A stretch of DNA of 61,423 bases from Desulfobulbaceae bacterium (GTDB lineage: Bacteria; Desulfobacterota; Desulfobulbia; Desulfobulbales; Desulfobulbaceae). The position numbers were made by a program, and so were the translations under genes. Shown piece by piece: positions 22,810 to 39,164 of the stretch. The stretch's first letter is position 1. Every line of letters begins with the position of its first letter. The notes beneath the pieces were generated by a model. It had not been told where the DNA came from. It saw only the letters and a program-made list of their open reading frames with translations, and searched no databases. The stretch is taken from positions 1 to 61,423 of the forward strand of contig JAFLKR010000039.1 in NCBI GenBank assembly GCA_019163135.1, read 5' to 3'.

Positions 22810-24021
22810 TCAGTTCGCCTTTTTACGAAGATAGGCAGGCTCGTCAAACTCATTTTGTTCGTGATCATCAAAAATCGGCAGCGGCATGCGCGGTAAACCT
22901 TTGGGCAGCATATTTGGCTTGGCGATGCTGACCGGAGCGCTCTCTGGGCCGCTGGCATCCTCCTCGAGTAGACGCGGCAGTCTGGAGCGCGTCGTTGCCG
23001 GTAATTTCTGGGTCTGTCGATGAGTGCGCACTACGTCGATCTGGGAAATCTCCGGATCCTCGATGCTGGAAATACCGGTGGCAATAACCGTCACCCGCAA
23101 TTCATCGCCCAGCGATTCGTCAAACAGCGCCCCGATAATGATATTGGCATCATCATGTGCTTTTTCCTGAATCAGTGCGGAAGCTTCCATGAATTCATTC
23201 ATGGTCAGGGTATTCTTGGCTGCGGAAATATTGATCAAAATGCCTCGGGCTCCATCGATGCCGACATCCTCAAGCAACTGATTGTCGATAGCACGCTTAG
23301 CTGCCTCGGTCGCACGATTTTCACCAACCGCGGCACCCGAGCCCATGATGGCGGGCCCGACTTCCTTCATGACCGTTTTCAAGTCGGCAAAGTCGACGTT
23401 GATGTGTCCTGGCAGATTGATGAGATCGGTGATCCCCTTGACTGCCTGCAGCAACACGTTGTCGACCATCTGCATCATATCGACCAGGGTGGAATTCTTG
23501 TTCATCAGGCTGAGCAGTCGGTCGTTTGGCACGGTAATAATGGTATCGGCATATTCCTTGAGCTTTTCCCAACCCGCCTCGGCATTGCGCATCCGCTTTT
23601 TGGCTTCGAAGTAGAACGGTTTGGTGACCACCGCCACCGTGAGAGCCCCGGCCTCCTTACTCAGCTTAGCGATCACCGGTGCGGCACCCGTGCCCGTCCC
23701 GCCGCCTAAACCGGCGGTGACGAAGACCATGTCCGCCCCTTTCAGAACAGACTGGAGGTCGTCGTAGCTCTCCTGAGCAGCTTCCCTGCCCATTTCCGGA
23801 TCAGCGCCCGCTCCCATGCCTTTGGTTATGCCCGGCCCTAATTGCAGACGGATATCGGCGCGCGATTTTTCCAGGGCCTGCATATCGGTATTGGCGGCAA
23901 TAAATTGCACGCCGGCCAATTTGCTTTCAACCATGGTATTGATGGCATTGCCACCTCCGCCACCAACCCCGATTACCTTTATAACAGCAACAGATTCTTC
24001 TTCGGCCATCCTGAACGGCAT
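22810..24021 (-). CDS. ftsZ: Cell division protein FtsZ
   Basis: 403 residues from the ATG of [10 protein letters not shown], with GGGAGAG before it. The tubulin-like GTPase signature [10 protein letters not shown] and the N-terminal [15 protein letters not shown] are intact, as is the T7-loop [12 protein letters not shown] short linker leads to a conserved C-terminal peptide, [10 protein letters not shown], that binds FtsA. FtsZ forms the Z ring that drives septum formation. It is the last gene of the cluster and looks fully functional, in contrast with the FtsI-like protein upstream. Confidence 0.98.
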
Positions 24022-24108
24022 GTTTCTCTCCCAAGAAAAAATTACCTGATTAATTTCTCTTATACATACCACTAAGTTCGGTGGCACCAAAGGGAAAAAT
24101 TAGTACAC

Positions 24109-25332
24109 TTAGACGATATTTTTCACCCAGTTTTTCAACTTGCTGACCATCCCGCCGTTTTCCTTCTGCACATAACTTCTCGCTTTACTGCCATAAAGAA
24201 TCAAACCGACTCCCGTGGTGCACCTGGGGGATCGAATATCCTCGACCCGTCCCTCCACGCCCTGCGGATAACCGATCCGCACCGGCAGGTCAAAGACCTG
24301 TTCCGCCATTTCAACAATATTGGCCAAGAGCGCGGTGCCGCCGGTGATCACGATGCCGGCATTGATCCGATTACGATAACCGGAGGCACAAATGTTTTTA
24401 TTGACCATCTGCAGAATTTCTTCCATCCTCGCCTCAAGGATCTCGACCATAATTCGTTGTGAGACCTTGCGGGGCTTACGGTCGCCGACCGTGGGCACCT
24501 CGATGATGTGGTTTTCCTTGATCATCGAGGAAAGGGCGCCACCGTAAAGATATTTCAATTCTTCGGCCTCCTGCAGCGGAGTCCGCAACCCAACCGAAAG
24601 ATCGCTGGTGAGATTATTGCCGCCCAAAGCCAACTCCCAGGTATGCTTGATGGTGCCGTTGCAGAAAATGGCAAGGTCGGTGGTGCCGCCGCCGATATCG
24701 ATCAGGGCAACCCCTAGCTCCATTTCATCCCTGCCGAGAACCGTCAGTGATGAAGCCACCGACTCGAGCACAATCTCAGCCACGGTCAACCCGGCCCGGT
24801 TACAGCTGGTCACCACATTATGCAAGGCGGTGACGTCGGCGGTGACAATATGCACATTGGTAACCAGGCGAACACCAGTCATGCCCAGCGGATTCTGGAT
24901 GCCGGTGTGATCGTCCACCATATATTCTTGCGGCAGAACGTGGATGATCTGCTGGTTATCGGAGATCTTCACGGTCTGGGCGGCCTGGATGACGGCCTCG
25001 ATATCCTTTTCCTTGATCTCCTGATTGTTGATGGCAATGATTCCAGGTGAGTTGAATCCTTTGATATGGTTGCCGGCAATGCCCACAAAAACCGACTCGA
25101 TATCGCAACCGGCCATGTCCGAAGCCGCTTCCACCGCCTGCCGGATCGACTTAACCGTTGACTCGATATTGACGACCACACCTTTTTTCATACCCGATGA
25201 GGCAGCGGTACCGACACCAACGATCTCCACCCGGTCCTCGAAAACCTCCCCGATCAGGGCACAGACCTTGGTTGTGCCTATATCAAGGGCAGCGACCAGT
25301 TCCCCCGGCTCCCGCGCTTCCAACTCTTCCAT
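24109..25332 (-). CDS. ftsA: Cell division protein FtsA
   Basis: 407 residues. The ATG at 25332 is preceded by GGTGAGGAT and overlaps nothing. Actin-like fold with phosphate-1 motif AALDIGTTKVCALIGE near residue 15, a SHS2-type domain, phosphate-2 LIDIGGGTTDLAIF near 200 and an adenosine motif GIVITGGTALLANIVEM near 330. The C-terminal amphipathic helix (GGMVSKLKNWVKNIV) is the membrane anchor that tethers FtsZ. Adjacent ftsQ and ftsZ on the same strand fit the usual order. Confidence 0.97.
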   Translation of the reverse strand: MEELEAREPGELVAALDIGTTKVCALIGEVFEDRVEIVGVGTAASSGMKKGVVVNIESTVKSIRQAVEAASDMAGCDIESVFVGIAGNHIKGFNSPGIIAINNQEIKEKDIEAVIQAAQTVKISDNQQIIHVLPQEYMVDDHTGIQNPLGMTGVRLVTNVHIVTADVTALHNVVTSCNRAGLTVAEIVLESVASSLTVLGRDEMELGVALIDIGGGTTDLAIFCNGTIKHTWELALGGNNLTSDLSVGLRTPLQEAEELKYLYGGALSSMIKENHIIEVPTVGDRKPRKVSQRIMVEILEARMEEILQMVNKNICASGYRNRINAGIVITGGTALLANIVEMAEQVFDLPVRIGYPQGVEGRVEDIRSPRCTTGVGLILYGSKARSYVQKENGGMVSKLKNWVKNIV

Positions 25333-25336
25333 ATCC

Positions 25337-26275
25337 TCACCTGTCAAGTTCCGCTCCGGCAACCAAGATTTTATCATCAGAATAATCCATTCGAATTTCT
25401 TTTACCGCTTCGACCTGTTTTTTGGCGTACAATTGCTCAAGCACTTTAACCAGTCGGAAATATTTAGTCTGCAACCGGTCTTTGCCGAAATAGACGGGAA
25501 AAGGTCGATCGAGCAGGTAGACGATCAGCCCATGCTGCGGGTCAACATGCACCTCTGAAACCGATTGAATCGGAAGGATGGCGTTACCCTTGGAGGCCAG
25601 AAACAAAAAGTTGCATGCCGCCTCAGCCAGTCCCCCTTTAACAAACTGATCGGCGGTCACATCTTTTCGCGACACCACCCCGGTTATCACCGGAAAATCA
25701 AATTCCTGCCCTTGGCCGACCTCTGCAAAGACATGCCCTTCCCGACTGACATAGCGTAATCGTCTTTCCTTACCCTCCTCGACATTTACCAGCGCAAACG
25801 GCTGATACTCGCGGACGGTGATATCAACGGCAGACGGCCATTGGGCTTTTATCTTGACCTGGTCCACCCAAGGATGGGCGGCTATTTTGGCCTCCGCCGC
25901 CTTGGCATTAAACTGCAACAGACTGTTGCCTTGCTGCAGACCCGCCAGATCGAGGATTTGCCGTTCGGTCGTGATTCGAACACCGGATATTCGGATATCG
26001 GTCAGCCGGAAAATATCGGACCGAAACAACAACTGGGTGGCTCCCCAGACGATTGCCGCCAGACCACCGGCCAGAACAACCAGCAGAACCGCGATCTGTG
26101 CAAGCCGTTTCAGTTGCCAAGCCCGATGGGCACCGCTCACCATGGTCTGGGCCCGGAACTGCACCGCCCTGGTATTGCGCCGCAGCAGTAAACCAATCAG
26201 TTTAGTAAATCTGCGCGGCTTGCTTCCGTTTTTTTGCGAGCGAGACGGCGCCTGCCTGGGGGTATAAATCGCCAT
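25337..26275 (-). CDS. ftsQ: Cell division protein FtsQ/DivIB
   Basis: 312 residues: a basic cytoplasmic tail of ~75 residues, one membrane helix near 78-100 (VLLVVLAGGLAAIVWGATQLL), a POTRA domain (FRLTDIRISGVRITTERQIL...) and the FtsQ beta domain. It bridges FtsA-ring components and FtsL/FtsB at midcell. It ends 4 bp before the ftsA start and is the usual neighbour of murB and ftsA in a dcw cluster. Confidence 0.93.
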   Translation of the reverse strand: MAIYTPRQAPSRSQKNGSKPRRFTKLIGLLLRRNTRAVQFRAQTMVSGAHRAWQLKRLAQIAVLLVVLAGGLAAIVWGATQLLFRSDIFRLTDIRISGVRITTERQILDLAGLQQGNSLLQFNAKAAEAKIAAHPWVDQVKIKAQWPSAVDITVREYQPFALVNVEEGKERRLRYVSREGHVFAEVGQGQEFDFPVITGVVSRKDVTADQFVKGGLAEAACNFLFLASKGNAILPIQSVSEVHVDPQHGLIVYLLDRPFPVYFGKDRLQTKYFRLVKVLEQLYAKKQVEAVKEIRMDYSDDKILVAGAELDR

Positions 26276-26296: not shown

Positions 26297-27235
26297 TTAA
26301 AAAATATGCACCTCAGGCTCCAGGAGAACGCCTGACTGCTGCAACACTTTGCTTCGAACCACCTGCATGAGCCCGATAATATCTTCGGGTACCGCGCCGC
26401 CGGTATTGACGATAAAATTGGCATGTTGTGGGGAAACCATCGCCTTGCCCAGCGTCAACCCTTTGAGTCCGGCCCGTTCAATCAGCCGACCGGCGAAATC
26501 TCCCGCTGGATTCTTGAAAAAAGAACCGGCCGAACCAACGCCCGAAGGCTGCTTCTGCCGGCGCTGTTCGACAATCTCCCGGCACCGAGCGGCCACCCCT
26601 TTGCGGTCGGCTCGCTGAAGGAAAAAAGTGCCGCGGGTGATGAGCATCCTGGTCGCTGGTTCTCCAGGGAATACGGTGTGGCGGTACGAAAAAGCGATAT
26701 CCGTGCTCGCCGCCTCCAGCAATTCGCCCCGGTCAGTGGTGCATTGCACCCGCTGCAGGACCTCACTGATCGAATGACCAAAGGCTCCGGCATTCATCCG
26801 GATGGCCCCGCCGACACTGCCGGGGATTCCAGCCATAAATTCCAACCCTGTCAGCCCGTTGCGAGCACACCAGGAGACAAAAACAGCCAGACTGCACCCG
26901 GCCCCAACCTGCACCCGGCTGCCCTTACTGGTTTCCGCTCCAGCATCAGGTACGGCCGCCATATCCTCGACCGAACCGCGCAGACGAATGAAAACCCCCT
27001 GGTGATATCCATTGGTAACCAGGATGTTGGAGCCGCCGCCGATAACCCGCCACTCCACCTGCTGTTGATGCAACCATCGCATGAGCGCGGCCAACTCGTC
27101 GGCATTACCCGGTTCGGCCACGGCCTCAACCACGCCGCCAGTGCGAAAAGTCGAGTAGGAGGCCATGTCGACGTCCCAGTGGACTGTTTGACAATGCGCT
27201 GCAAGTTCCGTGCGTTGTTGGAGGTTCATGCTCAT
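26297..27235 (-). CDS. murB: UDP-N-acetylenolpyruvoylglucosamine reductase MurB
   Basis: 312 residues from the first ATG of MSMNLQQ; the upstream frame is not likely to be used. FAD-binding signatures are present: YSTFRTGG, VIGGGSNILVTNGY and the catalytic GLEFMAGIPGSVGGAIRMNAGAFG. A second part carries GSAGSFFKNPAGDFAGRLIE with the catalytic Ser/Glu pair. It reduces UDP-GlcNAc-enolpyruvate to UDP-MurNAc. It sits between murC and ftsQ as expected. Confidence 0.96.
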   Translation of the reverse strand: MSMNLQQRTELAAHCQTVHWDVDMASYSTFRTGGVVEAVAEPGNADELAALMRWLHQQQVEWRVIGGGSNILVTNGYHQGVFIRLRGSVEDMAAVPDAGAETSKGSRVQVGAGCSLAVFVSWCARNGLTGLEFMAGIPGSVGGAIRMNAGAFGHSISEVLQRVQCTTDRGELLEAASTDIAFSYRHTVFPGEPATRMLITRGTFFLQRADRKGVAARCREIVEQRRQKQPSGVGSAGSFFKNPAGDFAGRLIERAGLKGLTLGKAMVSPQHANFIVNTGGAVPEDIIGLMQVVRSKVLQQSGVLLEPEVHIF

Positions 27236-27323
27236 GCTCTCGTCATTGGTATGGCGATGGGCCACGTCCTGATTACCGGTGCACATTCGCCCGGTGCTCC
27301 GCCCCAGTTGTTGCCTGTTTGTT

Positions 27324-28709
27324 TCAATCTTTCTTTTCTCCAAGCAGTTGCAGAATCTGCTCACCCGCCCTGACAATATTTCCCGCTCCCAGGGTCAACA
27401 GCAGATCCCCAGGTAGTAAAAGAGGCGCCAAGGCCAACGGTTGCTGGACCAACTGCGGAATAAAATAAGTATGCCGCTGCCCATGTTGCTTGATACTCTC
27501 CTGCAGATGTTCGGAGGAGACGCCTTCGATCGGTTGCTCACCGGCTGCATAGATATCGGTCAGCACCAAAACATCGGCTCGCCGAAAAGCGGTGGTGAAA
27601 TCGGCGAACAAACCGGCGGTCCTACTGTAACGATGCGGCTGAAAGGCCACCACCACCCGTCTGTCGGGCCAGCCTTCCCGCACCGCATCCAGTGTAGCTC
27701 GAATTTCCGTGGGATGATGACCGTAATCGTCAACCACCAGTACGCCGCCAGCCTCGCCTTTGATCTGGAGCCGACGTTGCACGCCCTGAAAATTGGCCAA
27801 GGCCTTGGCGATTACCGCGAAATCAATCTCCAACTCCAGAGCGACGCCGATGACGGCAAGACTGTTATAAACCAGATGTTTCCCCGGACGGTTCAACTGG
27901 ATGACACCCAGTTCCTGGTCACGATACCGCACTGTAAATTGCACCCCCCCCTTGCCGGAGGTAATTTTGACTGCCTGCAGATCAGCCTGTTCGGTCAAAC
28001 CATAAGTGAGGATTCGTTTCTGGATACGGGGCAGTATCTGGGCTATGTGATCGTTATCGAAACAGACGACCGCCACCCCGTAGAAAGGCAACCGGTTGAT
28101 GAACTCGAGGAATATTTCTTTGATATGCTCAATGTCACGGTAATAATCAAGGTGCTCCAAATCGATATTGGTTACCACCTCGATCACCGGCGACAGTTTC
28201 AAAAAGGAGCCGTCGCTCTCATCGGCCTCGGCGACCAGGAATTCGCCCGCCCCCAGTTTGGCGTTACTGCCGAGCCCAAGAACTTTGCCGCCAACCACCA
28301 CCGTCGGATCAAGACCGGCTTCGACCAGGACAGCGGCCACCATGGAGGTGGTCGATGTTTTCCCGTGACTGCCGGCCACCGCGATCCCATATTTCTTCAA
28401 ACGCATCAACTCGGCCAGCATCTCAGCCCGCTGGATGACAGGGATATGCTCTTCGTGGGCGGCGACCACCTCGGGGTTGTCGGCGGGAATGGCGGTGGAG
28501 GTCACAACCACGTCTGCGCCAGCCACCCAGGCCGCCGCGTGCCCCTGCTGCACGACGCCGCCCATCTGCTCCAATCGCCTGGTGATATCAGTTGAGCGCA
28601 GGTCAGATCCGCTTACCCGATAACCGAGACTCAACAGTAGTTCGGCTATTCCCGACATGCCGATACCGCCGATGCCGACGAAATGAATGTGTTTGGTTTT
28701 CCTATACAT
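27324..28709 (-). CDS. murC: UDP-N-acetylmuramate-L-alanine ligase MurC
   Basis: 461 residues from the ATG of [12 protein letters not shown]. The Rossmann start [19 protein letters not shown], the Mur ligase ATP loop [16 protein letters not shown] and the central [12 protein letters not shown] mark Mur[10 protein letters not shown] and [12 protein letters not shown] are in the C-terminal domain. It adds the first L-Ala to UDP-MurNAc. It lies in the usual order after murG and before murB. Confidence 0.97.
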
Positions 28710-28739
28710 GAAGGTGCCTGCTATCAAATAAAAATAAAA

Positions 28740-29831
28740 TCATAAGCTACGCCCAGTCCAAGCCGCCAATTGCAAGCATTCATCCACGATCCGGTCTGTG
28801 GCATCCGGCATGGCCATCGTCTTCATGCTGGCAGCCATTGTATGTAACTCTGCCGAGTTATGCAAGCATTCGCTGATCGCCCGGGCTAGAATTTCTCCGG
28901 TGAGACCGGACTCTTTCAGCACCAGAGCCCCACCGTTCCTTGCGTAGTATTCGCCATTGGTTACCTGATGATTATCCGCAGCATAGGGATAAGGTATCAA
29001 CAGGGCCGGTAACCCCATAACCGACAGTTCCGCCAAGGTTGTTGCTCCGGCACGGGACACCACCAGATCGGTTCGGGAATAGGCCCCGGCCATATCCCTG
29101 ATAAACGATACTACCGTCGCCTCAATGCCAAGGCGTGCATAGCCTTGGGTTACCAATTCCTGGTCCGCTGCCCCGGTCTGATGGATGAGGCGCAGCGGCA
29201 CCTTTTGGGCCACCAGTATTTCTATTGCCTCCAGCATCAGCAAGTTTACCCGATGGGCGCCCTGACTGCCACCGAGCACCAGCACGGTCGGCACTTCGGC
29301 GACCTGCTTCTCCTGGCTTGCGGCGGCCAGAATCTCCTGCCGCACCGGGTTACCGGTCTGCACGGTTTTAGCCGGTGGAAAGGGGGGAGTGCAGGGCAGC
29401 GAGATACAGATGCGATCCACCAACCATCCCGCCAGCCTGTTGGCCATACCCGGCACCGAGTTCTGTTCGTGAATGCCGATGGGTATCCGCAATAAACACG
29501 CGGCCAGCAATACCGGCCCGGTTACATAACCGCCGACCCCGAACACCAAGTCCGGCTTAAAATGCCGCAACAACCGAATGGCCGCCACCACGGCTCCGGG
29601 CATCAACAGCAGACTTCGGAGCTTAGCGATAAAACTCAAGCCTTTGACCCCGCCGCAGTCCAAAGCGACGAGTTCAAACCCCTGCCCGGCAAGGGCCTGC
29701 TGATCAAGCAGACGGGAGGTGCCGATGAACAGAACCCGCGTTGCCGGAACCCGCTTTTGCATTCCAGTAGCCAAGGCAATGCCGGGAAAAAGATGGCCGC
29801 CGGTACCGCCGCCGGTAATAATCAGGCGCAT
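28740..29831 (-). CDS. murG: Lipid II synthase MurG (GlcNAc transferase)
   Basis: 363 residues from ATG of MRLIITGGGTGGHLFPGIALA, whose glycine loop is the first MurG motif; HEQNSVPGMANR near 123 and GGSQGAHRVN near 180 are the others. The C-terminal UDP-GlcNAc site holds SRAGATTLAELSVMGLPALLIPYP. It adds GlcNAc to lipid I at the inner face of the membrane. Its start overlaps the end of the small Cys gene by 10 bp, so translation is coupled. In most clusters the coupling partner here is ftsW. Confidence 0.96.
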   Translation of the reverse strand: MRLIITGGGTGGHLFPGIALATGMQKRVPATRVLFIGTSRLLDQQALAGQGFELVALDCGGVKGLSFIAKLRSLLLMPGAVVAAIRLLRHFKPDLVFGVGGYVTGPVLLAACLLRIPIGIHEQNSVPGMANRLAGWLVDRICISLPCTPPFPPAKTVQTGNPVRQEILAAASQEKQVAEVPTVLVLGGSQGAHRVNLLMLEAIEILVAQKVPLRLIHQTGAADQELVTQGYARLGIEATVVSFIRDMAGAYSRTDLVVSRAGATTLAELSVMGLPALLIPYPYAADNHQVTNGEYYARNGGALVLKESGLTGEILARAISECLHNSAELHTMAASMKTMAMPDATDRIVDECLQLAAWTGRSL

Positions 29832-30043
29832 GGAAGGCAGGAACCGTGTACCGATGACCAAGGAGGCGGCCTCAAGGCACAGCCAATCTTTCCGCCGATA
29901 AAGCCTTCGATCTCCGCCATCACAGCCGCGTAACAGTCAGGGCAGTAGGCATGAGTAACCCGCTCGTCTTCCGCGAAAGTGCGGTTGACGCGCCATTGCC
30001 CGCCCTCCTCAACCTTGTGACAGGCACAACACATTTTGATCAT
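29822..30043 (-). CDS. Small CxxC/CxxC protein occupying the usual ftsW position
   Basis: 73 residues (MIKMCCACHKVEEGG start). A CCAC at residues 5-8 and CPDC at 34-37 form a probable zinc-ribbon or metal-binding knuckle of about 30 residues, with THAYCPDCYAAVM like the tail of many small bacterial zinc-finger proteins. The C-terminal end is Cys/Pro-rich (Cys55, Cys69, Cys72). It overlaps the murD stop by 4 bp (ATGA) with a strong GGAGGGAG ahead, and overlaps murG by 10 bp, so it is a genuine coupled gene. I do not know a role in wall synthesis. ftsW is normally found exactly here. Confidence 0.8.
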   Translation of the reverse strand: MIKMCCACHKVEEGGQWRVNRTFAEDERVTHAYCPDCYAAVMAEIEGFIGGKIGCALRPPPWSSVHGSCLPCA

Positions 30044-31428
30044 GGCTCTCCCTCCTTCCCGGTCGGTTCCCGACGAAGTTGATGGACACATTCGGCAAAA
30101 ACCCGGCCCCGTTCTTCGTATCCGGAAAACATATCGTAACTGGCACAGCCGGGAGCCAGCAGCACAAGATCACCGCTCACGGCGGCGGCCTTCGCCTTTC
30201 TGACCGCGTCCGCCATGGTGGTGGCCGACTCGGTCCCGACCACCGTCCCCAAAGCCGCCTCCATCAAATCCGCCGCTTCACCGACCAGGACCAGATGCTT
30301 GACCTTGGCGCGGACAACCTCCTGCAGCATGGTATAATCCCCCCCCTTATCGCGGCCGCCGGCGATCAAAATGACCGGCGAGGTGCAACCGCCCAGAGCC
30401 GCCTGCAGGGCCCCGATATTAGTGGCTTTGGAATCGTTGATAAAACGCACTCCGTCGATCTCCCCAACCTCTGCCATGCGGTGCGGCGGCGGCTCAAAGG
30501 CTGCCAGTCCGGCGATGATCGCCTCCCGGCTGCAGTTGCACAGGGTGGCTGCCAGGATAGCGGCGGCGGCATTGAGCTGATTAACCGAGGAATGCAACCG
30601 GGTTCCGGCGAGATCATACATCTCCTCGCAAGCAACCCCGCTCCGTTCCAGTCGGACCCGGACCTGCCCGTCAATGATCCGGGCTGCACAGCGCTCTTCT
30701 TTTCCAAACCAGAAACCGAGAACGCCGCCATTCAGCGGAGCCGCATCGGCTACCGGGTCATCGCCGCCCAAGATGGCAACATCGCCGACAACCTGGGCCC
30801 CGAAGAGGTTCATCTTGGCTGCGGTGTAAGCGGACAGCGATCCATGCCGATCCAGGTGATCAGGAGAAATGTTGAGCAAGAGTCCAACATCCGGACGAAA
30901 GGCACCGGCCAGATCGAGCTGAAAACTTGACAATTCCAGCACCACGGTTGCATACGGTCCTGGATCGGCAAAATAATCAAGCAGGGGCCTGCCGATATTG
31001 CCGCCGACAAAAGGTGTTTTACCGCCCATTTGCAGCAGAGTCCCGATCAGGCTGGTGACAGTGGTCTTACCGTTGGAACCAGTGACCGCAATGACCGGGA
31101 CTGAATATCGACCCGCCGCCAGGGCCAGTTCGCCCATTATCGGGAGCCCTTGCTCACGGGCTGCACGGATGATTGGCAGACTCAACGGCACCCCCGGCCC
31201 AGGGATGACCACGTCGGCGCCGACAAGAAAGGCTGCTGAATGGCCACCGGTTTCAATCCGAATCGCCGAGTGCTGCAAAAATTTCAGGACATACGGATCG
31301 ATTTGGTCGATCGTGCCACGCTCCGAGACCGCGACCCGCAGACCTTGACGCAACAAAAACTTGACAGTGGACAGCCCCGCCGTCCCCAACCCAATCACCA
31401 CTGCCTGCATCCCTTGTTTCAGCTGCAC
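30040..31428 (-). CDS. murD: UDP-N-acetylmuramoyl-L-alanine:D-glutamate ligase MurD
   Basis: 462 residues. N-terminal Rossmann IGLGTAGLSTVKFLLRQGL, ATP loop VTGSNGKTTVTSLIG near 114, HLDRHGSLSAYTAAK with the carbamylated-Lys-like region near 205, and the C-terminal FINDSKATN and GGRDKGGDY of MurD. It adds D-Glu to UDP-MurNAc-L-Ala. mraY lies 3 bp upstream and the small Cys gene overlaps its end. Confidence 0.97.
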   Translation of the reverse strand: MQLKQGMQAVVIGLGTAGLSTVKFLLRQGLRVAVSERGTIDQIDPYVLKFLQHSAIRIETGGHSAAFLVGADVVIPGPGVPLSLPIIRAAREQGLPIMGELALAAGRYSVPVIAVTGSNGKTTVTSLIGTLLQMGGKTPFVGGNIGRPLLDYFADPGPYATVVLELSSFQLDLAGAFRPDVGLLLNISPDHLDRHGSLSAYTAAKMNLFGAQVVGDVAILGGDDPVADAAPLNGGVLGFWFGKEERCAARIIDGQVRVRLERSGVACEEMYDLAGTRLHSSVNQLNAAAAILAATLCNCSREAIIAGLAAFEPPPHRMAEVGEIDGVRFINDSKATNIGALQAALGGCTSPVILIAGGRDKGGDYTMLQEVVRAKVKHLVLVGEAADLMEAALGTVVGTESATTMADAVRKAKAAAVSGDLVLLAPGCASYDMFSGYEERGRVFAECVHQLRREPTGKEGEP

Positions 31429-31431
31429 GGT

Positions 31432-32511
31432 TTATCTCAACTTCAAGGTTGCTAAGGCAACCAGGCCGAGGATAATGGAAACGATCCAGAACCGAACCAC
31501 GACCTTCGGTTCCAGCCAGCCCTTTTTCTCGAAATGATGATGAAACGGAGCCATGAGGAAAATCCGTTTGCCCCCGCTCATCTTGAAATACCCGACCTGG
31601 AGGATGACGGAAATCGCCTCCATCACAAAAATCCCCCCGACAATAACCAGCAGGAATTCCTGTTTGGTTATGATCGAAATCACCCCCAGTGTACCGCCCA
31701 GCGAAAGCGAACCGACATCGCCCATGAAAATTTCCGCCGGATAGCAGTTAAACCAGAGAAATCCCAGGCAGGCGCCGACTATGCCGCCACAAAAGATGGT
31801 AACCTCTCCGGCACCCGGTACAAAGGGAATCTGCAAATAACTGGCGACCACTGCGTTACCGGCGACATAAGAAAAAATAAGGTAGGTCGAGGCGGTAATT
31901 ACGATTGGCCCGGCTGCCAGACCGTCGAGGCCGTCGGTCAGATTGACGGCGTTAGAGGCACCGACGATCACCAAAACCGCAAAAGGCAGGTACCACCAGC
32001 CCAGGTCAGGGTGAAAACTCTTAAAAAACGGCAGGCTGAGCATACCATCATAGCCGGGGGTCAAAAGGAGAAAAACCCCGACCAGCGATGCCCCGAACAC
32101 CTGCAGAGCCAATTTGCCCCTGGCACTCAATCCCCGGGAGTTGCCTTTGCTGATTTTTTTAATATCATCCAGCGACCCGATACCCCCAAAAAACAGGCTG
32201 ATCCCGATCAGCAGCCAGATCAAGCCGCTGCGCAGATCGGTCCACAGCAGGGCGGAGACGGTTATGGCAAAGAGAATCAGCGCCCCACCCATGGTGGGCA
32301 CCCCTTGCTTGGAGAAGTGGGTCTCCGGGCCATCGTCCCTGATCACCTGGCCAATCTGCCTTTTCTGCAGCCAGGCGATGAACCGCGGCCCGATGATCAC
32401 CAGGATGAGGAAAGCGGTCACCGCGCTGCCGATCGAGCGAAAGGTGATGTAACGGAAAACATTGAGCCAGCTCAGTTCCGTATGAAAGGGATAGAGAAAA
32501 TTATAAAACAT
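31432..32511 (-). CDS. mraY: Phospho-MurNAc-pentapeptide transferase MraY
   Basis: 359 residues with about ten membrane helices. Diagnostic motifs: DDGPETHFSKQGVPTMGG near 50, SLDDIKKISK (the catalytic Asp pair region) near 107, NAVNLTDGLDGLAAG near 180, and GDVGSLSLGG near 255, then the His-rich APFHHHFEKKGW near 318. It makes lipid I from UDP-MurNAc-pentapeptide and undecaprenyl phosphate. It starts 13 bp below the fused murE-murF stop. Confidence 0.98.
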   Translation of the reverse strand: MFYNFLYPFHTELSWLNVFRYITFRSIGSAVTAFLILVIIGPRFIAWLQKRQIGQVIRDDGPETHFSKQGVPTMGGALILFAITVSALLWTDLRSGLIWLLIGISLFFGGIGSLDDIKKISKGNSRGLSARGKLALQVFGASLVGVFLLLTPGYDGMLSLPFFKSFHPDLGWWYLPFAVLVIVGASNAVNLTDGLDGLAAGPIVITASTYLIFSYVAGNAVVASYLQIPFVPGAGEVTIFCGGIVGACLGFLWFNCYPAEIFMGDVGSLSLGGTLGVISIITKQEFLLVIVGGIFVMEAISVILQVGYFKMSGGKRIFLMAPFHHHFEKKGWLEPKVVVRFWIVSIILGLVALATLKLR

Positions 32512-32524
32512 AATCCGTTATATA

Positions 32525-35500
32525 TTAATTGAGCGCTTTTAACCGCTGTTCCATTGCTTCGATGAGCCGCTCCATCCGCATCCCCCGCGACCCCTTGACC
32601 AGCAGCCAGTCGCCAGCGGACAAGGCCCCGTCATCCAACATTTTGCAGAGCCATTCGGCAATCTGGCAGGGTTCGGCGAAGGTCTGTACATCTGCTGGTT
32701 GCATCCCGGCCTTTTGCGCAGCCTGGGCGACCAGTTGCGCATGGGCCCCGGTGACCGCCAGCCTGTCATAGCCAAGCTTCGCGACCAGCGTGCCGATTTC
32801 GTGATGCAAGTTCTCCGAGGCGGTGCCGAGTTCGAGCATGTCTCCCAGAGCTGCGACATGACGACAGTTGCTGCCAAAGGCTGCAACCGTACGCAACCCG
32901 GCCGCCATCGAAGCTGGGTTGGCATTATAGGCATCGTTCACCAGCCGTAGACCGCCTGGCAGGGTGGAAACGACCAACCGCTTATCCACCGCCGTGTATC
33001 CCTGCAACCCCCTGACAATGGTTGCCGGCTCTATGCCGGCGGCATGGGCAATGGCTGCAGCCGCGGCGCAATTGGCAACATTATGACTACCATGCACTGG
33101 TACAGTAATGCGCTCGCGCCATGGCCCGAGGTGCAGGGTAAAACGCATGCCAATCTCGCCCAGATTCTTCTGACGGGTGACCTGAACCGACGGCTGAAGC
33201 CTGCGACCTGCAGTGGTCACCGCAAAACCGACCTGTCGGCCTCCCGATTGTTTTGCCAAGGCCACGACATTGGGGTCGTCGCAGTTGACGACCCGTATGG
33301 ATTCAGGCCGCATCCCGGCAAACAACTCTCCCTTGGCCCGGGCAACGCCCTCAATACTGCCAAGCCCCAGCAGGTGGGCAGGATGAACATTGTTGATGCA
33401 ACCGATATCGGGATCCGCAATGGCGGTAAGACGGGCGATTTCACCGGGGGCATTCATCCCCATCTCCAGAATGGCCCTTCGATGACCGGCTTCCAGTGGC
33501 AGAAGAGAGAGGGGGAGGCCCACCAGGTTGTTAAAATTTCCTTTGGTCTTCAGGAGCGGATCAATCCCGGTGCGGGTTGCCAGCAACGCCTGGGCAAAGA
33601 TTCCGGCGGTCATCTCCTTGACCGTGGTTTTCCCAGAACTTCCAGTTATAGCCGCCACCTGGACCTCAGGCGCTAAAAGACGGCGACGGTACGCAGCCAG
33701 TTCTCCCAGGGCACGCAAGGTATCGTTGACCTGAATATACAACACTTGCGGCGCCAGGGTCGGCGGCATTCGCTCGGCGATGACCGCTCCCGCGCCGCTT
33801 GTCACTGCGGCATCGATATAGACGTGCCCATCAAAGCTTTCCCCGTTCAAGGCGATAAAAACATCACCACGCTGCAGGTGGCGTGAATCGGTTGAAACCT
33901 GCGCAAATAAATCCTGCTGCCTGCCGGCAACAACCCAGCCGCCGGTGGCCGCCACCAGATGACGCTCGTTCCAACGCAGCAGCCCGTTCATCACCTCAAG
34001 GCGGTCGTCGAAAAAATGCTTTTGAGTCCCGATGATCTGATAATCCTCATGGCCCTTGCCGGCCACAAGCACACTGTCACCGGGAAGGGCCAGACTGCAG
34101 GCACTCGCAATCGCCGTCCTCCGGTCCGCGATGACCGTAAAGCCATCCATCGGCAGATCAACGCTCAGCAACTCCTGGGGAGTGCAACACCGTTTCCCGC
34201 TGGCCGCAACCCCTTCGACAATAGCGTCGATAATTGAATCCGGCGCTTCGGTTCTCGGGTTATCGGAGGTAACGATAACCGCATCTGCATACTGCCCGGC
34301 GATGGTTCCCATCAATGGCCGCTTGCCCCGATCCCGATCGCCACCACAGCCGAAAATACAGATAAGTCGCCCGACCGCTAACCCTTTCAAAGTCTTCAGA
34401 ACATTTTCCAGGGCATCGGGAGTGTGGGCGTAATCAACAAACACCGCCGGACCGGAGGATAGAACCTCGCCCGGCAAGGTCACACGTTCCAACCTACCTG
34501 GAACGCGACCGACCCCGGCCAATCCCTCGCGGATACGATCTCCCGATATGCCAAGCCCAACCCCGACACCCGCTGCCGCCAATACATTCAACACATTGTA
34601 ACCACCGGGCAGCGGAGAGGCGAAAGCCGCCTCATGCCCCTTCAGGCGAAGGGTGCAACGGAATCCCGCCAGGGTCTGGGACAAATTGGTGGCTCGCACC
34701 TCGCACTGCTCCGACAGGCCGCAGCGAAGGAGAGGGACACCAGGGGTGAACTGGGCGGCCAGCAACTCACTCCAGTCGGCACCCTCTACAGGCTCGTTGA
34801 CAACCACCACAGCCACCCCGTTTTGCTTAAGATGTCGCGAAAAAAGCAATTTCTTGGCATCGAAATACTGCTCCATGTCAAGATGATAATCGAGATGGTC
34901 ACGGCTCAGATTGGTAAAGAGGGCAACGTCATAGCAGGTCCGTCCCAAGCGCTTTTGCTGGAGGGCATGGGAAGAAACCTCCATAACTACATGGGTCACG
35001 TGCTGGTCTACCATGATACGGAACAACCGCTGCAAGCTCACCGGGTCAGGGGTGGTCAGGGGGGCATCCTGGATGACATGCAGACCGTCAAGTCCATGAT
35101 AGCGGTAATTGACCGTCCCAATCACCCCGGGCCGATAACCGGCGACGATCAGCATGCCCTCAATCAAATAGCTGCAGGTGGTTTTGCCATTGGTCCCGGT
35201 GATCCCTATCAATTGCAGGTGGTTGGCGGGATAACCATACCAGGCTGCCGCCAGTTCGCTGATTGCTTCGTGGCAGTCCTGCACCAGAATGGTCGGCACG
35301 GCCGATTCCCCAATACCGTCGCTTGCGTCAAGGACCACAGCCAGACACCCTCTTTGAATTGCGTCGGCAATATACGCACGCCCATCAGCCTTTTCCCCGC
35401 GGATGGCGACAAAAAGACTGCCGGGAACAACCGCCCTTGAATCGGCGGTGATCGCCGTCACCGGTCTGGAGAGCAAAGCCTCCGGCACCTGAACTGCGAC

Positions 35501-35548
35501 CTGACCGTCGATGGTAGATAAAAGCTCTGCAAGAGTGATCATAGTCAT
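32525..35548 (-). CDS. murE-murF: Fused MurE-MurF ligase (m-DAP-adding and D-Ala-D-Ala-adding)
   Basis: 1007 residues from an ATG 8 bp below the ftsI stop (a second ATG is two codons on). MurE half: ATP loop GITGTNGKTT near 123 and DNPRTEAP near 430, whose Arg marks meso-diaminopimelate specificity. MurF half: from about residue 528, with ATP loop AITGSSGKTT near 640 and NDAYNANPASM near 860. No frameshift, stop or long linker separates them. The two domains catalyse consecutive steps, UDP-MurNAc-tripeptide then pentapeptide. Such fusions are known in some bacteria, so this is not unique. Confidence 0.97.
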   Translation of the reverse strand: MTMITLAELLSTIDGQVAVQVPEALLSRPVTAITADSRAVVPGSLFVAIRGEKADGRAYIADAIQRGCLAVVLDASDGIGESAVPTILVQDCHEAISELAAAWYGYPANHLQLIGITGTNGKTTCSYLIEGMLIVAGYRPGVIGTVNYRYHGLDGLHVIQDAPLTTPDPVSLQRLFRIMVDQHVTHVVMEVSSHALQQKRLGRTCYDVALFTNLSRDHLDYHLDMEQYFDAKKLLFSRHLKQNGVAVVVVNEPVEGADWSELLAAQFTPGVPLLRCGLSEQCEVRATNLSQTLAGFRCTLRLKGHEAAFASPLPGGYNVLNVLAAAGVGVGLGISGDRIREGLAGVGRVPGRLERVTLPGEVLSSGPAVFVDYAHTPDALENVLKTLKGLAVGRLICIFGCGGDRDRGKRPLMGTIAGQYADAVIVTSDNPRTEAPDSIIDAIVEGVAASGKRCCTPQELLSVDLPMDGFTVIADRRTAIASACSLALPGDSVLVAGKGHEDYQIIGTQKHFFDDRLEVMNGLLRWNERHLVAATGGWVVAGRQQDLFAQVSTDSRHLQRGDVFIALNGESFDGHVYIDAAVTSGAGAVIAERMPPTLAPQVLYIQVNDTLRALGELAAYRRRLLAPEVQVAAITGSSGKTTVKEMTAGIFAQALLATRTGIDPLLKTKGNFNNLVGLPLSLLPLEAGHRRAILEMGMNAPGEIARLTAIADPDIGCINNVHPAHLLGLGSIEGVARAKGELFAGMRPESIRVVNCDDPNVVALAKQSGGRQVGFAVTTAGRRLQPSVQVTRQKNLGEIGMRFTLHLGPWRERITVPVHGSHNVANCAAAAAIAHAAGIEPATIVRGLQGYTAVDKRLVVSTLPGGLRLVNDAYNANPASMAAGLRTVAAFGSNCRHVAALGDMLELGTASENLHHEIGTLVAKLGYDRLAVTGAHAQLVAQAAQKAGMQPADVQTFAEPCQIAEWLCKMLDDGALSAGDWLLVKGSRGMRMERLIEAMEQRLKALN

Positions 35549-35555
35549 GACGCAA

Positions 35556-37379
35556 TCATTTGGTATCAAGGGTCAAAACACACTCATTTACCCCGGCCAG
35601 CGATTGGCCTGGAAGCGGATATTGGGCGACAATCCGGCCACTGCCATTGACACGAATTTTCATTTTGTATTGTTTGAGTTGCTGCAATCCTTTACGAAGA
35701 CTCATCCCTTTGACCATCGGCATAACGGGAATCGGCTCATTCACTTTTCCGGGAGTTTCCCTAAAATTGAGCCGCTTGCTGATAAAAAATTGTCTTAAAT
35801 TTTCAGTGTTTTTTTGCGGGGGCTTTCCTTGGGAAACCTCGGCAGGTTGCTCTTTGACAAACAACGTCAGTAATTCCTTGCCCATTTCTTCCAGCGCCGA
35901 CTTTTTGTAACTTTTTTCAGAAGGCATCGGCCGGAGGTATTCTTGCTCAATTGCCATCAACAAAAGAAATTTTGGCTGCTTGGCCGGAGCTAAACCGACG
36001 AACAATCCCTGCATGGAATATTTGGAGAAAGCCTTCTCTTTCAACAACTGCAGATGCTCTCCAGTAAAAACGACCAAATTCTCCTGCTCCATCAACCACT
36101 TGGAAAACAGCTCGCGCCGAATCTTGACACTTTGTGCCGGGTCGAGCACATGACTTTTCTGAGTAGCGTCATTATTGCGAAAATAGCGTTTGGCCGTATT
36201 GTGGTCGTAGATGGAGTCAACCACATACGGCGTGATCCGCCATCCCCCATTGACCAGGCTGGCCAGGGTTACCCCGACCTGCACGCCGGTTACAGAGGGA
36301 ACGGCATCCGGTTGCTCGGGCGCACCAGGGCCGGACTCCCAATTCCCAAAAACCGAACCATACAACTGAATCTGTTTTTCAAAGGCATCGAGCATGGTGC
36401 TGGTAAAACCATAATCCGGGGCGGCCACAGTTTCCGGGAGCAACCCTGCACCATTCAGCCCCTCGCGTTCTATCGCCGCTGCCCTGGCAAGAATGGGACG
36501 AATGAGTTCCTTATCGAGCACATGGTTGTATATACGATTCACCCTATTGCTCTCATTGGCCTTCCAAAAATAATTGGGGTTAAAGGATGGTTGATTGACC
36601 AAGGCCAGGATGCGTCCGCTGCCCGGCTCAATCACCAACCCCATACCCTTCTCCGCCCCTTGCGCTGAGAGATACTCGCGAAAACGCTGCTCTAATTTTT
36701 TTTGGACATCAATATCCAGGGTGAGGATGAGATCTGTGGAATTTCCCCCCAGACTTTCCTGCCCTTGAAAATCGATATCTGCCATGTTGCTTCGCCGGAA
36801 TGTACCCGCCTGCAGCACGGCATCATATTTCCCTTCGACCCCGGCTAAACCCACGCCGTCCCCCATAAACCCCAATACATGCGATGCGGCGGTATGGCCC
36901 GGATAGAATCTCGCTTCCACTGCCTTGCACGACACCCCTTTGAGTTGCAAAGCAATGACTTGCGCCGCCTTCTGTTCATCGAGATCATCGGCCAGTTCCA
37001 GATAACGCTGCGAGTCCTTCAACTTGGCCTCAAGACTCTCAGGCTTTCCACCGATCAGCGGTGCCAATGCCTCAGCGACCTTGCGATGATTGCTGACTTC
37101 CACCGGATTAACCGTCAAGGAAAACAACCGATACGAAACCGCCAGTTCGTTAAATTTCCGGTCGTAAACCGTGCCCCTTAAAACAGTTTCAGCGGGCGCC
37201 GGGCCCGCTGAAAAAGTAGAAATTTTGCTGACAGCAGCCTGTATCATTCTGCCGATATCCTGGAGGGAGGAGGGGCATCTATACAGAACGACAGCAGCCG
37301 CTGTCAGCAAAATAACGAGGAGGAGTAAAAGATAAAACCATCGTATTTTATTTTTTTTGGCTCTTAAATTTTTTGCCAT
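35556..37379 (-). CDS. FtsI/PBP-like protein lacking catalytic transpeptidase motifs
   Basis: 607 residues from the ATG 7 bp below ftsL (a longer frame from a TTG is possible). One membrane helix near 13-33. The class B PBP pedestal is normal: ETVLRGTVYDRKFNELAVS near 64-82, HVLGFMGDGVGLAGVEGKYD near 167, and DLILTLDIDVQKKLEQRF near 216. The transpeptidase-fold framework continues (GLVIEPGSGRILALVNQPSF and later QGLFVGLAPAKQPKFLLLM). The catalytic SxxK is replaced by a Leu-Asp-Lys-Glu-Leu-Ile-Arg-Pro segment of the same length, and no SxN or KTG is found where expected. A PASTA-like domain ends the protein. It is full length and in frame. Confidence 0.85.
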   Translation of the reverse strand: MAKNLRAKKNKIRWFYLLLLLVILLTAAAVVLYRCPSSLQDIGRMIQAAVSKISTFSAGPAPAETVLRGTVYDRKFNELAVSYRLFSLTVNPVEVSNHRKVAEALAPLIGGKPESLEAKLKDSQRYLELADDLDEQKAAQVIALQLKGVSCKAVEARFYPGHTAASHVLGFMGDGVGLAGVEGKYDAVLQAGTFRRSNMADIDFQGQESLGGNSTDLILTLDIDVQKKLEQRFREYLSAQGAEKGMGLVIEPGSGRILALVNQPSFNPNYFWKANESNRVNRIYNHVLDKELIRPILARAAAIEREGLNGAGLLPETVAAPDYGFTSTMLDAFEKQIQLYGSVFGNWESGPGAPEQPDAVPSVTGVQVGVTLASLVNGGWRITPYVVDSIYDHNTAKRYFRNNDATQKSHVLDPAQSVKIRRELFSKWLMEQENLVVFTGEHLQLLKEKAFSKYSMQGLFVGLAPAKQPKFLLLMAIEQEYLRPMPSEKSYKKSALEEMGKELLTLFVKEQPAEVSQGKPPQKNTENLRQFFISKRLNFRETPGKVNEPIPVMPMVKGMSLRKGLQQLKQYKMKIRVNGSGRIVAQYPLPGQSLAGVNECVLTLDTK

Positions 37380-37386
37380 CACACAG

Positions 37387-37749
37387 CTACATCCGGTGCA
37401 CCTGCCCTTGTCCAGGTTCAAACAGATTCAGCTTTTTGCCGGCAAGCGATATAATATGATTTTTGGACGCCAACTGCGCTCGCACGGACAGCAGCCGTAT
37501 ATTCTCATTACTGATACTGGTGTTCAGGATTCGGACCTTTTCGGCCCTGCTTCGCATATCCACCATCTGGCCATGGAAAAACTGGGTTACCACCAATCCC
37601 AATACCAAGCCAACGGTAGCCATAACAACAGCCCATTTTCGCGATTCTGTAGACATGCCGAGACTGAACCAAGGCGTTTCCTGCCGTCGCGCCCTTAAAG
37701 CAACCTGCTGCGGCGGCCTGTAAATTCTCACATTGGCATTTGACCCCAT
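37387..37749 (-). CDS. ftsL: Cell division protein FtsL-like
   Basis: 120 residues from an ATG preceded by GGGGGTAGGT (a longer frame overlapping rsmH is unlikely). A basic N-tail, one membrane helix near 40-59 (WAVVMATVGLVLGLVVTQFF) and then a short coiled coil rich in Leu, Ile and Val with NENIRLLSVRAQLAS. This is the small bitopic protein that links FtsQ to FtsB in septum assembly. Sequence is too short and divergent for certainty; context carries the call. Confidence 0.8.
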   Translation of the reverse strand: MGSNANVRIYRPPQQVALRARRQETPWFSLGMSTESRKWAVVMATVGLVLGLVVTQFFHGQMVDMRSRAEKVRILNTSISNENIRLLSVRAQLASKNHIISLAGKKLNLFEPGQGQVHRM

Positions 37750-37802
37750 ACCTACCCCCTTTTCTCCTCTTAACTCCCAGGGACCACTCCCCCAGGAAAC
37801 GG

Positions 37803-38705
37803 TCAAACTCTTGCGGCCACCCGAAGCTTTGCACTTCTTGATCGTGGATTTCGCTGCATTTCTGCCCTTGATGGTTCAATCGGCCGCTTGGTCAGCACTG
37901 CATAAGCCGGGTTCTGCAGAAACGTCTGTTTCACAATTCGATCTTCCAGGGAATGGAAGGTTATAATGCAAATTCTGGCGCCTGACACCAGCACCTCCGG
38001 TGCGGCTGCCAACAGCTTGGTAAGATTGTCCAATTCGCCGTTGACTGCAATCCGTAAGGCCTGGAAAACTTTGGTAGCTACATGCACCTTGGGCGGATGA
38101 TATTTTCTAGGAACAGCCGCAGCTATAATCGCCGCCAACCTGCCCGTAGTCGTCACAGGTGCCTCCTGCCGCGCTTCCACCAGAAAACGGGCAATTCGCC
38201 GGGCCTGACGCTCCTCGCCATAATGGTAAAAAACATCTGCCAGTTGTTCTTCGGATAACCGAGCAACCAGCGAGGCCGCAGTGTTCGGACTCCGCTTGTC
38301 CATGCGCATATCAAGGGCATGGTCTGTCCTGAAGCTGAACCCTCGCTCGGCCTGATCGAGTTGCAACGAACTCACCCCGAGATCGGCAATCAATCCGTCA
38401 ATGCCAGCCAAACCGAGTTCTCCGAGTTCCATCAGCAAGGCCGCGTAGGAGGCCCGCACTATGTGCAACCGATCGGAATATCCGGACAGCCGCTCGCCGG
38501 CTTTAACGGCGGCATCCTCATCCCATTCAAAACCGATAACCCGGCCCGATGGCGCCGTCACATCCAGAATCGCCTGAGAATGCCCGCCCAGGCCAAGCGT
38601 ACCGTCGACATACAATCCATCTGGGGTCGGTTGCAGCCACTCGAGGATTTCGTCCTGCAACACCGGGATATGAATCGCCGAGGGGGTCAGGGGCATGGAG
38701 GGCAC
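37803..38705 (-). CDS. rsmH: 16S rRNA (cytosine1402-N4)-methyltransferase RsmH
   Basis: 300 residues. SAM-binding motif VDGTLGLGGHSQAIL near 33, DLGVSSLQLDQAERGFSFRTDHALDMRMD near 107-135, and the C-terminal ITFHSLEDRIVKQTF near 250, all diagnostic of RsmH (MraW). It modifies C1402 in the ribosomal P site. mraZ lies 6 bp upstream, the usual start of a dcw cluster. Confidence 0.98.
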   Translation of the reverse strand: MPSMPLTPSAIHIPVLQDEILEWLQPTPDGLYVDGTLGLGGHSQAILDVTAPSGRVIGFEWDEDAAVKAGERLSGYSDRLHIVRASYAALLMELGELGLAGIDGLIADLGVSSLQLDQAERGFSFRTDHALDMRMDKRSPNTAASLVARLSEEQLADVFYHYGEERQARRIARFLVEARQEAPVTTTGRLAAIIAAAVPRKYHPPKVHVATKVFQALRIAVNGELDNLTKLLAAAPEVLVSGARICIITFHSLEDRIVKQTFLQNPAYAVLTKRPIEPSRAEMQRNPRSRSAKLRVAARV

Positions 38706-38711
38706 AATGGC

Positions 38712-39164
38712 TTATAAAATCCCCAGAGCAGAGAGTCCGGCACTGAACTCCTCGAACGTTTCACGAGTGTGCCGCGTCTCTTGTTCCCATGCATTTTTAT
38801 CCCATATTTCAAAATGTTGGAGCATACCGACCAGGATTACATCCTTATCGATACTAAAGCCCGCCCTGAGCGTCGGCGGCAGAAGAATTCGCCCCTGCTT
38901 ATCCAGGGGACATTCGCTGACACCGGCAATTAGATACCGGACAAACTTGCCAAAATTCGGCTGCATCCTGCCCTGGTCCAGCAGTTTCTCTTCCAAGGCT
39001 TCCCACTCGCGAACCGGGTAGGCACGGAGACACTGTTGCCAGTTGGTCACGATCAGCATTTCGGAATCGTACTGCTCCCTGAGCACGTCGCGAAAACGTG
39101 CCGGTATGTTCAGGCGACCTTTCGGGTCAAGACTATGCTCCGAGTGACTCCGAAACCGTTGCAC
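38712..39164 (-). CDS. mraZ: Transcriptional regulator MraZ
   Basis: 150 residues with two SpoVT/AbrB-like halves: FRSHSEHSLDPKGRLNIPARFRDVL near 4-28 and DKQGRILLPPTLRAGFSID near 87-105. It is the first gene of the cluster. MraZ is a repressor/autoregulator that binds phased direct repeats in front of its own gene, and such repeats are present here at 39219-39243. This copy is complete. Confidence 0.97.
   Translation of the reverse strand: MQRFRSHSEHSLDPKGRLNIPARFRDVLREQYDSEMLIVTNWQQCLRAYPVREWEALEEKLLDQGRMQPNFGKFVRYLIAGVSECPLDKQGRILLPPTLRAGFSIDKDVILVGMLQHFEIWDKNAWEQETRHTRETFEEFSAGLSALGIL

Follow-up and report, generated by a model that had tools for sequence, protein, structure and literature searches.

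A putatively non-catalytic FtsI kept without FtsW in Desulfobulbaceae and their relatives

Our analysis reports a division protein of a Desulfobulbaceae bacterium, encoded within its dcw cluster, that appears to have been kept after its active site was lost. We consider it probable (roughly 0.6) that this dcw FtsI became a pseudoenzyme in a lineage from which FtsW, too, has disappeared, and that it is now a structural or regulatory part of the divisome. With the active site dead, FtsW gone and the protein nevertheless kept, the dividing wall must be built another way. On the scale of the phylum, division without an FtsW-FtsI septal synthase probably arose in an entire class of Gram-negative bacteria and, independently, in two or more other lineages; ftsW would have left the dcw cluster and FtsI would have been recycled as a non-catalytic FtsL/FtsQ membrane anchor, in some lineages one of about 250 residues.

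The ftsI slot of the dcw cluster and its active-site motifs

The window, by which we mean the whole stretch of 61,423 nucleotides that was analysed, holds a dcw cluster running in one direction, in the order mraZ, rsmH, ftsL-like, pseudo-ftsI, murE-murF, mraY, murD, murG, murC, murB, ftsQ, ftsA and ftsZ. The genes were named by position, length and the order common to 39 other clusters, and murE-murF from NCBIfam. Features are listed with their evidence in brackets; a line without brackets rests on position, length and a homologue at the same place.

38712..39164, minus strand: mraZ
37803..38705, minus strand: rsmH (position, length, homologue at the same place; PF01795 matches its relatives)
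37387..37806, minus strand: FtsL-like protein of 139 residues with one membrane helix, directly upstream of pseudo-ftsI (hydropathy, position)
35556..37379, minus strand: pseudo-ftsI, 607 codons from the ATG at 37379 (ORF 37421-35556)
37278..37361, minus strand: N-terminal membrane helix, residues 7-34 (helix 7-34 in the model; hydropathy)
36780..37184, minus strand: PBP-dimer pedestal, residues 66-200 (Pfam PBP_dimer at 66-189; conserved)
35940..36779, minus strand: degenerate transpeptidase domain, residues 201-480 (Pfam Transpeptidase; fold retained; drop in identity)
36495..36506, minus strand: place of SxxK, residues 292-295, here Leu-Ile-Arg-Pro (alignments)
36057..36068, minus strand: approximate place of KTG, residues 438-441, Phe-Thr-Gly-Glu (one alignment; uncertain, as a second alignment differs)
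35565..35726, minus strand: PASTA domain, residues 552-605 (Pfam PASTA)
32525..35569, minus strand: murE-murF fusion, 1014 residues, overlapping the end of pseudo-ftsI (NCBIfam)
31432..32511, minus strand: mraY
30040..31428, minus strand: murD
29862..30039, no strand: murD-murG junction, the place of ftsW in outgroups; ftsW absent (cluster comparison)
28740..29861, minus strand: murG
27324..28727, minus strand: murC
26297..27376, minus strand: murB
25337..26275, minus strand: ftsQ
24109..25377, minus strand: ftsA
22810..24090, minus strand: ftsZ

The FtsL-like protein gave no Pfam or NCBIfam match, so its name rests on place and shape; such an ORF precedes the ftsI slot in all 17 loci measured in the order and in family f31. 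The murE-murF fusion scored above the NCBIfam cut-offs for murE and murF and slightly below that of the bifunctional MurE/MurF model. Pseudo-ftsI lies between rsmH/ftsL-like and murE in the window, in 13/13 other clusters of the order and in genomes G004 and G115.

The frame is open throughout, as the original prediction had stated, running from 37421 with no internal stop, and that prediction's claim of a retained pedestal and PASTA-like end was borne out by Pfam (PBP_dimer, E 7e-12; PASTA, E 2.7e-5). The Transpeptidase profile matched (E 2e-8) in two stretches, the best of which covers profile positions 162-288, beyond the SxxK part. In NCBIfam the SpoVD model obtained the top score and the FtsI model matched as well, all far below their cut-offs. 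Pfam, the structural model and hydropathy identified a PBP-dimer pedestal and a membrane helix, and the protein is a class B PBP, probably the true dcw FtsI inherited by descent.

SxxK, SxN and KTG had been predicted to be missing from their expected places, and alignments across the order agree. When the window protein is aligned with 23 FtsIs from the phylum's other families, LIRP stands in its SxxK columns and its SxN region is mostly deleted; at the KTG columns one alignment gives FTGE and another --EH. All 23 outgroup FtsIs in that alignment carry SxxK and SSN, with KTGT in 22 and KTAT in one. S-x-x-K strings occur in the window protein at residues 490, 516 and 560 (after the transpeptidase domain and in PASTA), and a single S-x-N at residue 265, ahead of the active site, while a string check over the whole protein found neither KTG nor KSG; some homologues have KTG or KSG strings at other places. 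It had further been proposed that no indel is needed to explain the change. This holds for the SxxK helix, which aligns without gaps, but not for what follows it: the SxxK-to-KTG span is 146 residues versus 200 in the catalytic reference L132 (about 54 shorter), so deletions belong to the motif loss.

The orthologues show the identical loss. At the aligned place, SxxK and KTG were each found in 0/51 proteins, comprising 48 from the order (including the window's) and three from f31. Of the 15 families drawn from the order, all except f2 and f11 are represented among the 48, making 13, and three of the rows (L019, L023, L051) are incomplete; the count excludes the duplicates L003 and L079 as well as L001, a PBP2 locus. 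An S-x-N was seen in three of the 51 (L032, L036, L050), in a poorly aligned stretch. All 38 named Desulfobulbaceae loci, whose genomes partly overlap those of the 48, lack SxxK, SxN and KTG. The named relatives found by a search with the family alignment are Desulfobulbus elongatus, D. alkaliphilus and D. rhabdoformis, and Desulfogranum japonicum, D. marinum and D. mediterraneum; the search also found many Desulfobulbaceae MAGs, and five of its 43 loci were distant matches in other groups. Judging by these relatives, we take the order to be Desulfobulbales. Within the genus, family and order, pseudo-FtsI was matched in 54/55 genomes, with zero match in G028 (84% complete); the sole match in G013 (74% complete) is weak and lies in a 698-codon PBP2-like frame.

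Constraint and fold of the protein

Nine pairs of genus homologues gave dN/dS values of 0.08-0.16 across the whole of pseudo-ftsI, and eight of them 0.05-0.14 in the dead transpeptidase domain (the ninth was saturated); several dS values exceed 1, so these ratios are rough. Read as such, they indicate strong purifying selection on the gene among close homologues, and the low values in the dead domain suggest that it is seemingly still in use within the genus. An assembly error or a decaying pseudogene is next to impossible as an explanation. Genes in two pieces do occur in the sample, as with ftsI in G027, split over two frames, and rodA in G018, frameshifted into two frames at a run of C. The motif loss, however, is found in isolates and MAGs alike, in full-length open frames, and dN/dS is well under 1. 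Sequencing error and gene decay were ruled out by the order-wide loss, the open frames and dN/dS; an error whose correction would restore the motifs is likewise excluded, the loss being common to the 48 order proteins and to every named locus.

Between distant members of the order (28 order versus 23 outgroup sequences), constraint appears to have moved within the protein. PASTA is the most alike domain in the order, with an identity of 0.47 versus 0.38 in the catalytic outgroups, and the pedestal is almost as similar as in the outgroups, at 0.38 versus 0.44. Identity falls to 0.26 versus 0.62 in the SxxK helix and to 0.23 versus 0.51 in the C-terminal half of the transpeptidase domain. As judged from these values, constraint shifted towards PASTA and was released on the helix and on the C-terminal half. 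The conserved PASTA domain would suit a protein that has left division for another envelope job, for example one in which PASTA senses wall fragments and the protein regulates hydrolases. We regard this as improbable, as pseudo-ftsI has kept its slot, flanked by ftsL-like and murE, in those clusters of the order that were read, and the ftsW-less families f42 and f43 retained the gene without a PASTA match.

An AlphaFold2 model of pseudo-FtsI built from a 33-row alignment had a mean pLDDT of 82. When the whole model was used as input to a fold search, the matches, among the 50 listed, pointed to the PBP3/SpoVD fold (Z about 31-35), including SpoVD 7rcz (Z 34.8, 4.0 Å over 409 residues) and the P. 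aeruginosa FtsI in the FtsWIQBL complex 8bh1 (Z 32.2, 5.3 Å over 409 residues). The protein thus resembles FtsI/PBP3 and SpoVD in gene place, membrane helix, pedestal and overall fold, and shares a PASTA-like end with the outgroup FtsIs looked at; it differs from FtsI/PBP3 and SpoVD in having lost SxxK, SxN and KTG, in its shortened SxxK-to-KTG part and in the disappearance of its partner FtsW. A retained transpeptidase fold, in a domain constrained between close relatives, would also be expected of an enzyme that still transpeptidates using other residues. We find this scarcely credible, since the alignment across the order shows no shared Ser, Cys or Thr replacing the nucleophile serine, and the SxxK columns vary widely (LIRP, GIGR, ELAL and others). 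Judged by sequence, pseudo-FtsI is an FtsI-derived pseudoenzyme: it shares descent with catalytic FtsI, its catalytic residues are gone and its open frame is under selection. The pseudoenzyme reading of the original prediction is upheld by the alignments, by purifying selection and by the modelled PBP3/SpoVD fold, and the Pfam search and structure prediction it had proposed as checks returned a partial Transpeptidase match and a retained fold, with the motif residues missing.

FtsW absence and active-site loss across the phylum

Between the murD and murG frames, where outgroups have ftsW, the window has a gap of 178 bases. The gene was absent from this junction in 16 order clusters and three f31 clusters, all that were read, and present in 60/60 outgroup clusters in which the junction was covered. 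Only one SEDS gene is present in the source genome; it lies on contig 14 together with mreB, mreC and PBP2 and scored 403.7 with the NCBIfam RodA model (cut-off 336.7) and 290.3 with the FtsW model (cut-off 337.5). By these scores it is RodA, so a pairing of pseudo-FtsI with FtsW fails.

The same was seen more widely. One SEDS locus was found in 57/58 order genomes (none in G004; in two pieces in G018 and G073) and in 76 of the 78 genomes of a class draw that overlaps the order set (none in G004 and G115). By coordinates, it shares a contig with a PBP2-type match and sits near it in 54/57, the exceptions being G039, G061 and G064. In a tree of 46 SEDS sequences, the 14 from ftsW-less genomes group with nine RodA candidates, apart from 23 dcw FtsWs; f42 too has a single SEDS gene, outside the dcw cluster. 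The remaining SEDS enzyme, where typed by sequence, is RodA, next to PBP2. G004 and G115 gave zero SEDS and zero MreC matches and retained pseudo-FtsI. They were considered as proof that RodA-PBP2 is dispensable, and this was dropped: both also lack a gene that, in G000, G021 and G023, neighbours the rod operon, so a missing contig is as likely and their evidence counts little. In G018 this neighbour gene sits elsewhere.

To compare the two losses we relied on two batches of dcw clusters. The first held 49: the window, 15 others from the order, three from f31, six from f38, f42, f43 and f68 (picked for their single SEDS count) and 24 outgroups; all 24 ftsW-bearing clusters had the three FtsI motifs. 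The second held 49 from the remainder of the phylum draw. Of its 36 clusters with ftsW, 35 had all motifs; in the other, G129, ftsI lies in two frames, the first piece without KTG. The remaining 13 end before murG, and all three motifs were present in 13/13. The phylum draw counts 99 genomes, and the motif check covered all but G124, G128, G141, G183, G195 and G204; in G183 (f62) rsmH was not found, hence the ftsI slot was not located. Altogether, FtsI lacked SxxK in 25/25 ftsW-less clusters, two of which (G046, G050) show S-x-N by alignment, and carried all three motifs in 59/60 ftsW-bearing clusters, the one left being the cluster with the split ftsI. Across the phylum sample, active-site loss and FtsW loss go together, as read from these sequences.

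To get clues on the number of events we placed the ftsW-less families on a tree of seven dcw genes (40 taxa, midpoint root). Family f31 joins the order with a support of 0.984, and with nine added taxa f31 and f43 still stand beside it, with a weak support of 0.49. Family f42, and f38 with f68, were placed elsewhere, f42 as sister (0.997) to two genomes with FtsW and all FtsI motifs. Given these placements and the FtsW-bearing sisters of f42, the tree requires at least three separate losses.

In f38, f68, f42 and f43 the ftsI slot is only 248-440 codons long. PASTA was matched in the f38 genome G179 (E 6.6e-6), whereas the match in G142 (E 0.012) fell under the cut-off. In f68 a stretch resembles pseudo-FtsI (BLAST E 1e-4), in f42 an RG-Y-FDRN pedestal start was seen by eye with zero Pfam match, and f43 has weak traces of pedestal and transpeptidase. 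Common to the proteins of all four families is a hydrophobic N-terminal segment, by eye, and at least one member of each has a small FtsL-like ORF just upstream. That segment and ORF, shared between the families, hint most strongly at a retained task with FtsL. The original prediction had overlooked that the partner ftsW is missing and that the state, common to the order, has arisen again in other parts of the phylum.

Candidate septal synthases and the proposed role

We infer a role in septum formation from the slot between ftsL-like and murE and from studies of division-PBP mutants elsewhere. The membrane helix and pedestal of pseudo-FtsI would dock on FtsL and FtsQ, and the docked protein would bring in or activate a different wall synthase at midcell, while PASTA may bind the septal wall. 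In a less certain step, the recruited synthase would be a class A PBP, as in C. difficile. The septal wall would be made by class A PBPs, which we favour, or by RodA-PBP2.

Two known systems resemble this proposal. In B. subtilis, PBP2B is reported to have a structural role independent of catalysis, and an inactive mutant supports assembly of the division complex (PMC5656894). The likeness lies in an inactive division PBP that supports the division complex; that mutant, however, was made in the laboratory and needs a second class B PBP, PBP3, whereas here the state is natural and no class B PBP besides pseudo-FtsI and PBP2 was seen in the source genome. In C. difficile, the class A PBP1 is described as building the septum and the class B PBP3 as promoting septation without catalysis (PMC12539705), with RodA-PBP2 assigned to elongation (PMC10693644). 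That species, too, lacks the canonical FtsW-FtsI pair, and there a class B PBP can aid septation non-catalytically (PMC10693644, PMC12539705). It differs in that SpoVD, the PBP of its dcw cluster, serves in sporulation and is known from an ampicillin structure (7rcz), whereas here the dcw PBP is naturally dead and FtsW is absent. Class A PBPs are favoured because C. difficile, without a functional FtsW-FtsI, builds its septum with the class A PBP1.

The source genome holds three proteins of the Transpeptidase family, namely pseudo-FtsI, PBP2 and a class A PBP, and its glycosyltransferase domain revealed another class A PBP, 1098 residues long. The two class A PBPs (624 and 1098 residues) have SxxK and KTG intact by eye. 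A hidden second FtsI was ruled out in this genome, the other Transpeptidase proteins being PBP2 and the class A PBPs. Among 12 genomes, the strong class B match was PBP2 in ten, with none in G004 and zero matches in G115; weak matches lie in frames of 358-448 residues in G001, G009, G014 and G037. Each of 34 order genomes has at least two glycosyltransferase-domain matches, some in short frames of monofunctional size, and in 30 of the 34 there is a frame of 1098-1182 residues, two of which were read. A class A PBP of about 1100 residues is, on this sequence evidence, an attractive candidate for a dedicated septal synthase. A frame of that size is missing in G027 (661 codons), G067, G070 and G080, and none was seen in f31, where G207 (90% complete) gave zero class A glycosyltransferase match. 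The genome of G070 is in two contigs.

None of the class A size classes occurs throughout the order, and a serious though distinctly less probable rival is that RodA-PBP2, the one pair of SEDS and class B proteins seen, builds the septum as well as the side wall, with pseudo-FtsI as its adaptor to the Z ring. It stays a rival because it is the sole synthase kept nearly everywhere, as the SEDS counts above indicate, and PBP2-SEDS pairs were seen in the ftsW-less f31, f38, f43, f62 and f68 genomes looked at. However, mreB and mreC accompany the pair in the source genome and in f31, as expected of the elongation machine, and the equivalent sole essential pair of C. difficile is reported to serve elongation (PMC10693644). 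The retention of pseudo-FtsI without SEDS in G004 and G115 also speaks against it, counting little since missing contigs are likely.

If class A PBPs or RodA-PBP2 can take over synthesis, the irreplaceable job of FtsI would be to assemble and signal. These bacteria would be a diderm group with a naturally broken FtsW-FtsI pair, one enzyme gone and the other kept but dead, a state that would set the structural role of FtsI apart from its catalytic one with no need for a mutant. Aztreonam is an FtsI-directed beta-lactam, a specificity known from E. coli, and such compounds are predicted to be without a division target here. Cultured species of Desulfobulbus and Desulfogranum allow one to ask which synthase builds the septum without FtsW. 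FtsW-FtsI is regarded as a near-universal core of septal wall synthesis (PMC10693644), and in the literature searched C. difficile is the worked-out exception; in a planctomycete, three canonical genes for division or shape are reported to be dispensable (PMC6952346). No paper describing an FtsI that is inactive in nature came up in the literature searched, subscription papers and preprints lying outside its scope.

The one paper we met on Desulfobulbaceae division genes concerns cable bacteria. It reports that ftsW, ftsN and zipA are lacking from four genomes, two of Ca. Electrothrix and two of Desulfobulbus (PMC7873302), so that the lack of ftsW in four Desulfobulbaceae genomes was already known, and it describes an mre-PBP2-RodA cluster as present. 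FtsI is counted there as a recruited division protein, and septal synthesis in E. coli is ascribed to FtsI activity; the words "catalytic" and "inactive" are absent from its main text and, unlike the present finding, its gene sets as presented there leave the lost catalytic residues of FtsI unmentioned. The state reported here bears on models of division in cable bacteria, for which FtsI is entered in the published gene lists like any other division protein. The same paper calls ftsL absent in many Desulfobulbaceae; the FtsL-like ORFs found here suggest that it was overlooked in those gene sets.

Reduced proteins in the ftsI slot of other ftsW-less families

In four further families that lack ftsW, the place of ftsI is taken by reduced proteins of 248-440 codons, which differ from one another in which parts of the protein remain.

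Reduced ftsI-slot proteins (L numbers, fetched loci)
L198:10095-10895, reduced ftsI-slot protein
L213:15076-15819, reduced ftsI-slot protein
L214:4153-5172, reduced ftsI-slot protein
L215:14146-15153, reduced ftsI-slot protein
L216:4239-5558, reduced ftsI-slot protein
L217:14780-15766, reduced ftsI-slot protein

Other frames of the window's dcw cluster

Three further frames of the cluster were noted.

32525-35569, a single 1014-codon frame in which murE and murF are fused
37387-37806, an FtsL-like ORF
29822-30091, an 89-codon frame spanning the murD-murG junction, the site of the missing ftsW

Among the 14 clusters of the order that were compared, the window's included, murE and murF are fused in seven and separate in seven. 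The FtsL-like ORF was matched by no Pfam and no NCBIfam model; ftsL is given as absent in many Desulfobulbaceae in one publication (PMC7873302). The junction frame carries paired cysteines, and its matches to Pfam were weak and all below the cut-offs.

Long class A PBPs and relatives without SEDS proteins

Contig 15 of the genome that holds the window encodes an unusually long class A PBP of 1098 residues (L226:1930-5223), in which SxxK, SEN and KTG were recognised by eye and whose transpeptidase part holds a long insert. Of 34 genomes of the order that were examined, 30 have such a long frame, of 1098-1182 residues and containing a glycosyltransferase domain; two of these frames were read.

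In the relative G115 (L218) the dcw cluster is complete, and SEDS (the FtsW/RodA family), Transpeptidase-family matches and MreC were all not found; as this genome is 90% complete, the genes perhaps lie on missing contigs. Neither SEDS, MreC nor a strong class B match was found in G004 (L219), a 99% complete genome, a MAG judging by the length of its contigs, that also lacks a gene adjoining the rod operon (rodA, PBP2 and mre genes) in relatives. In G018, a genome of one contig, rodA is apparently frameshifted at a run of C (L192, around 12060-12160), which is either an error or real.
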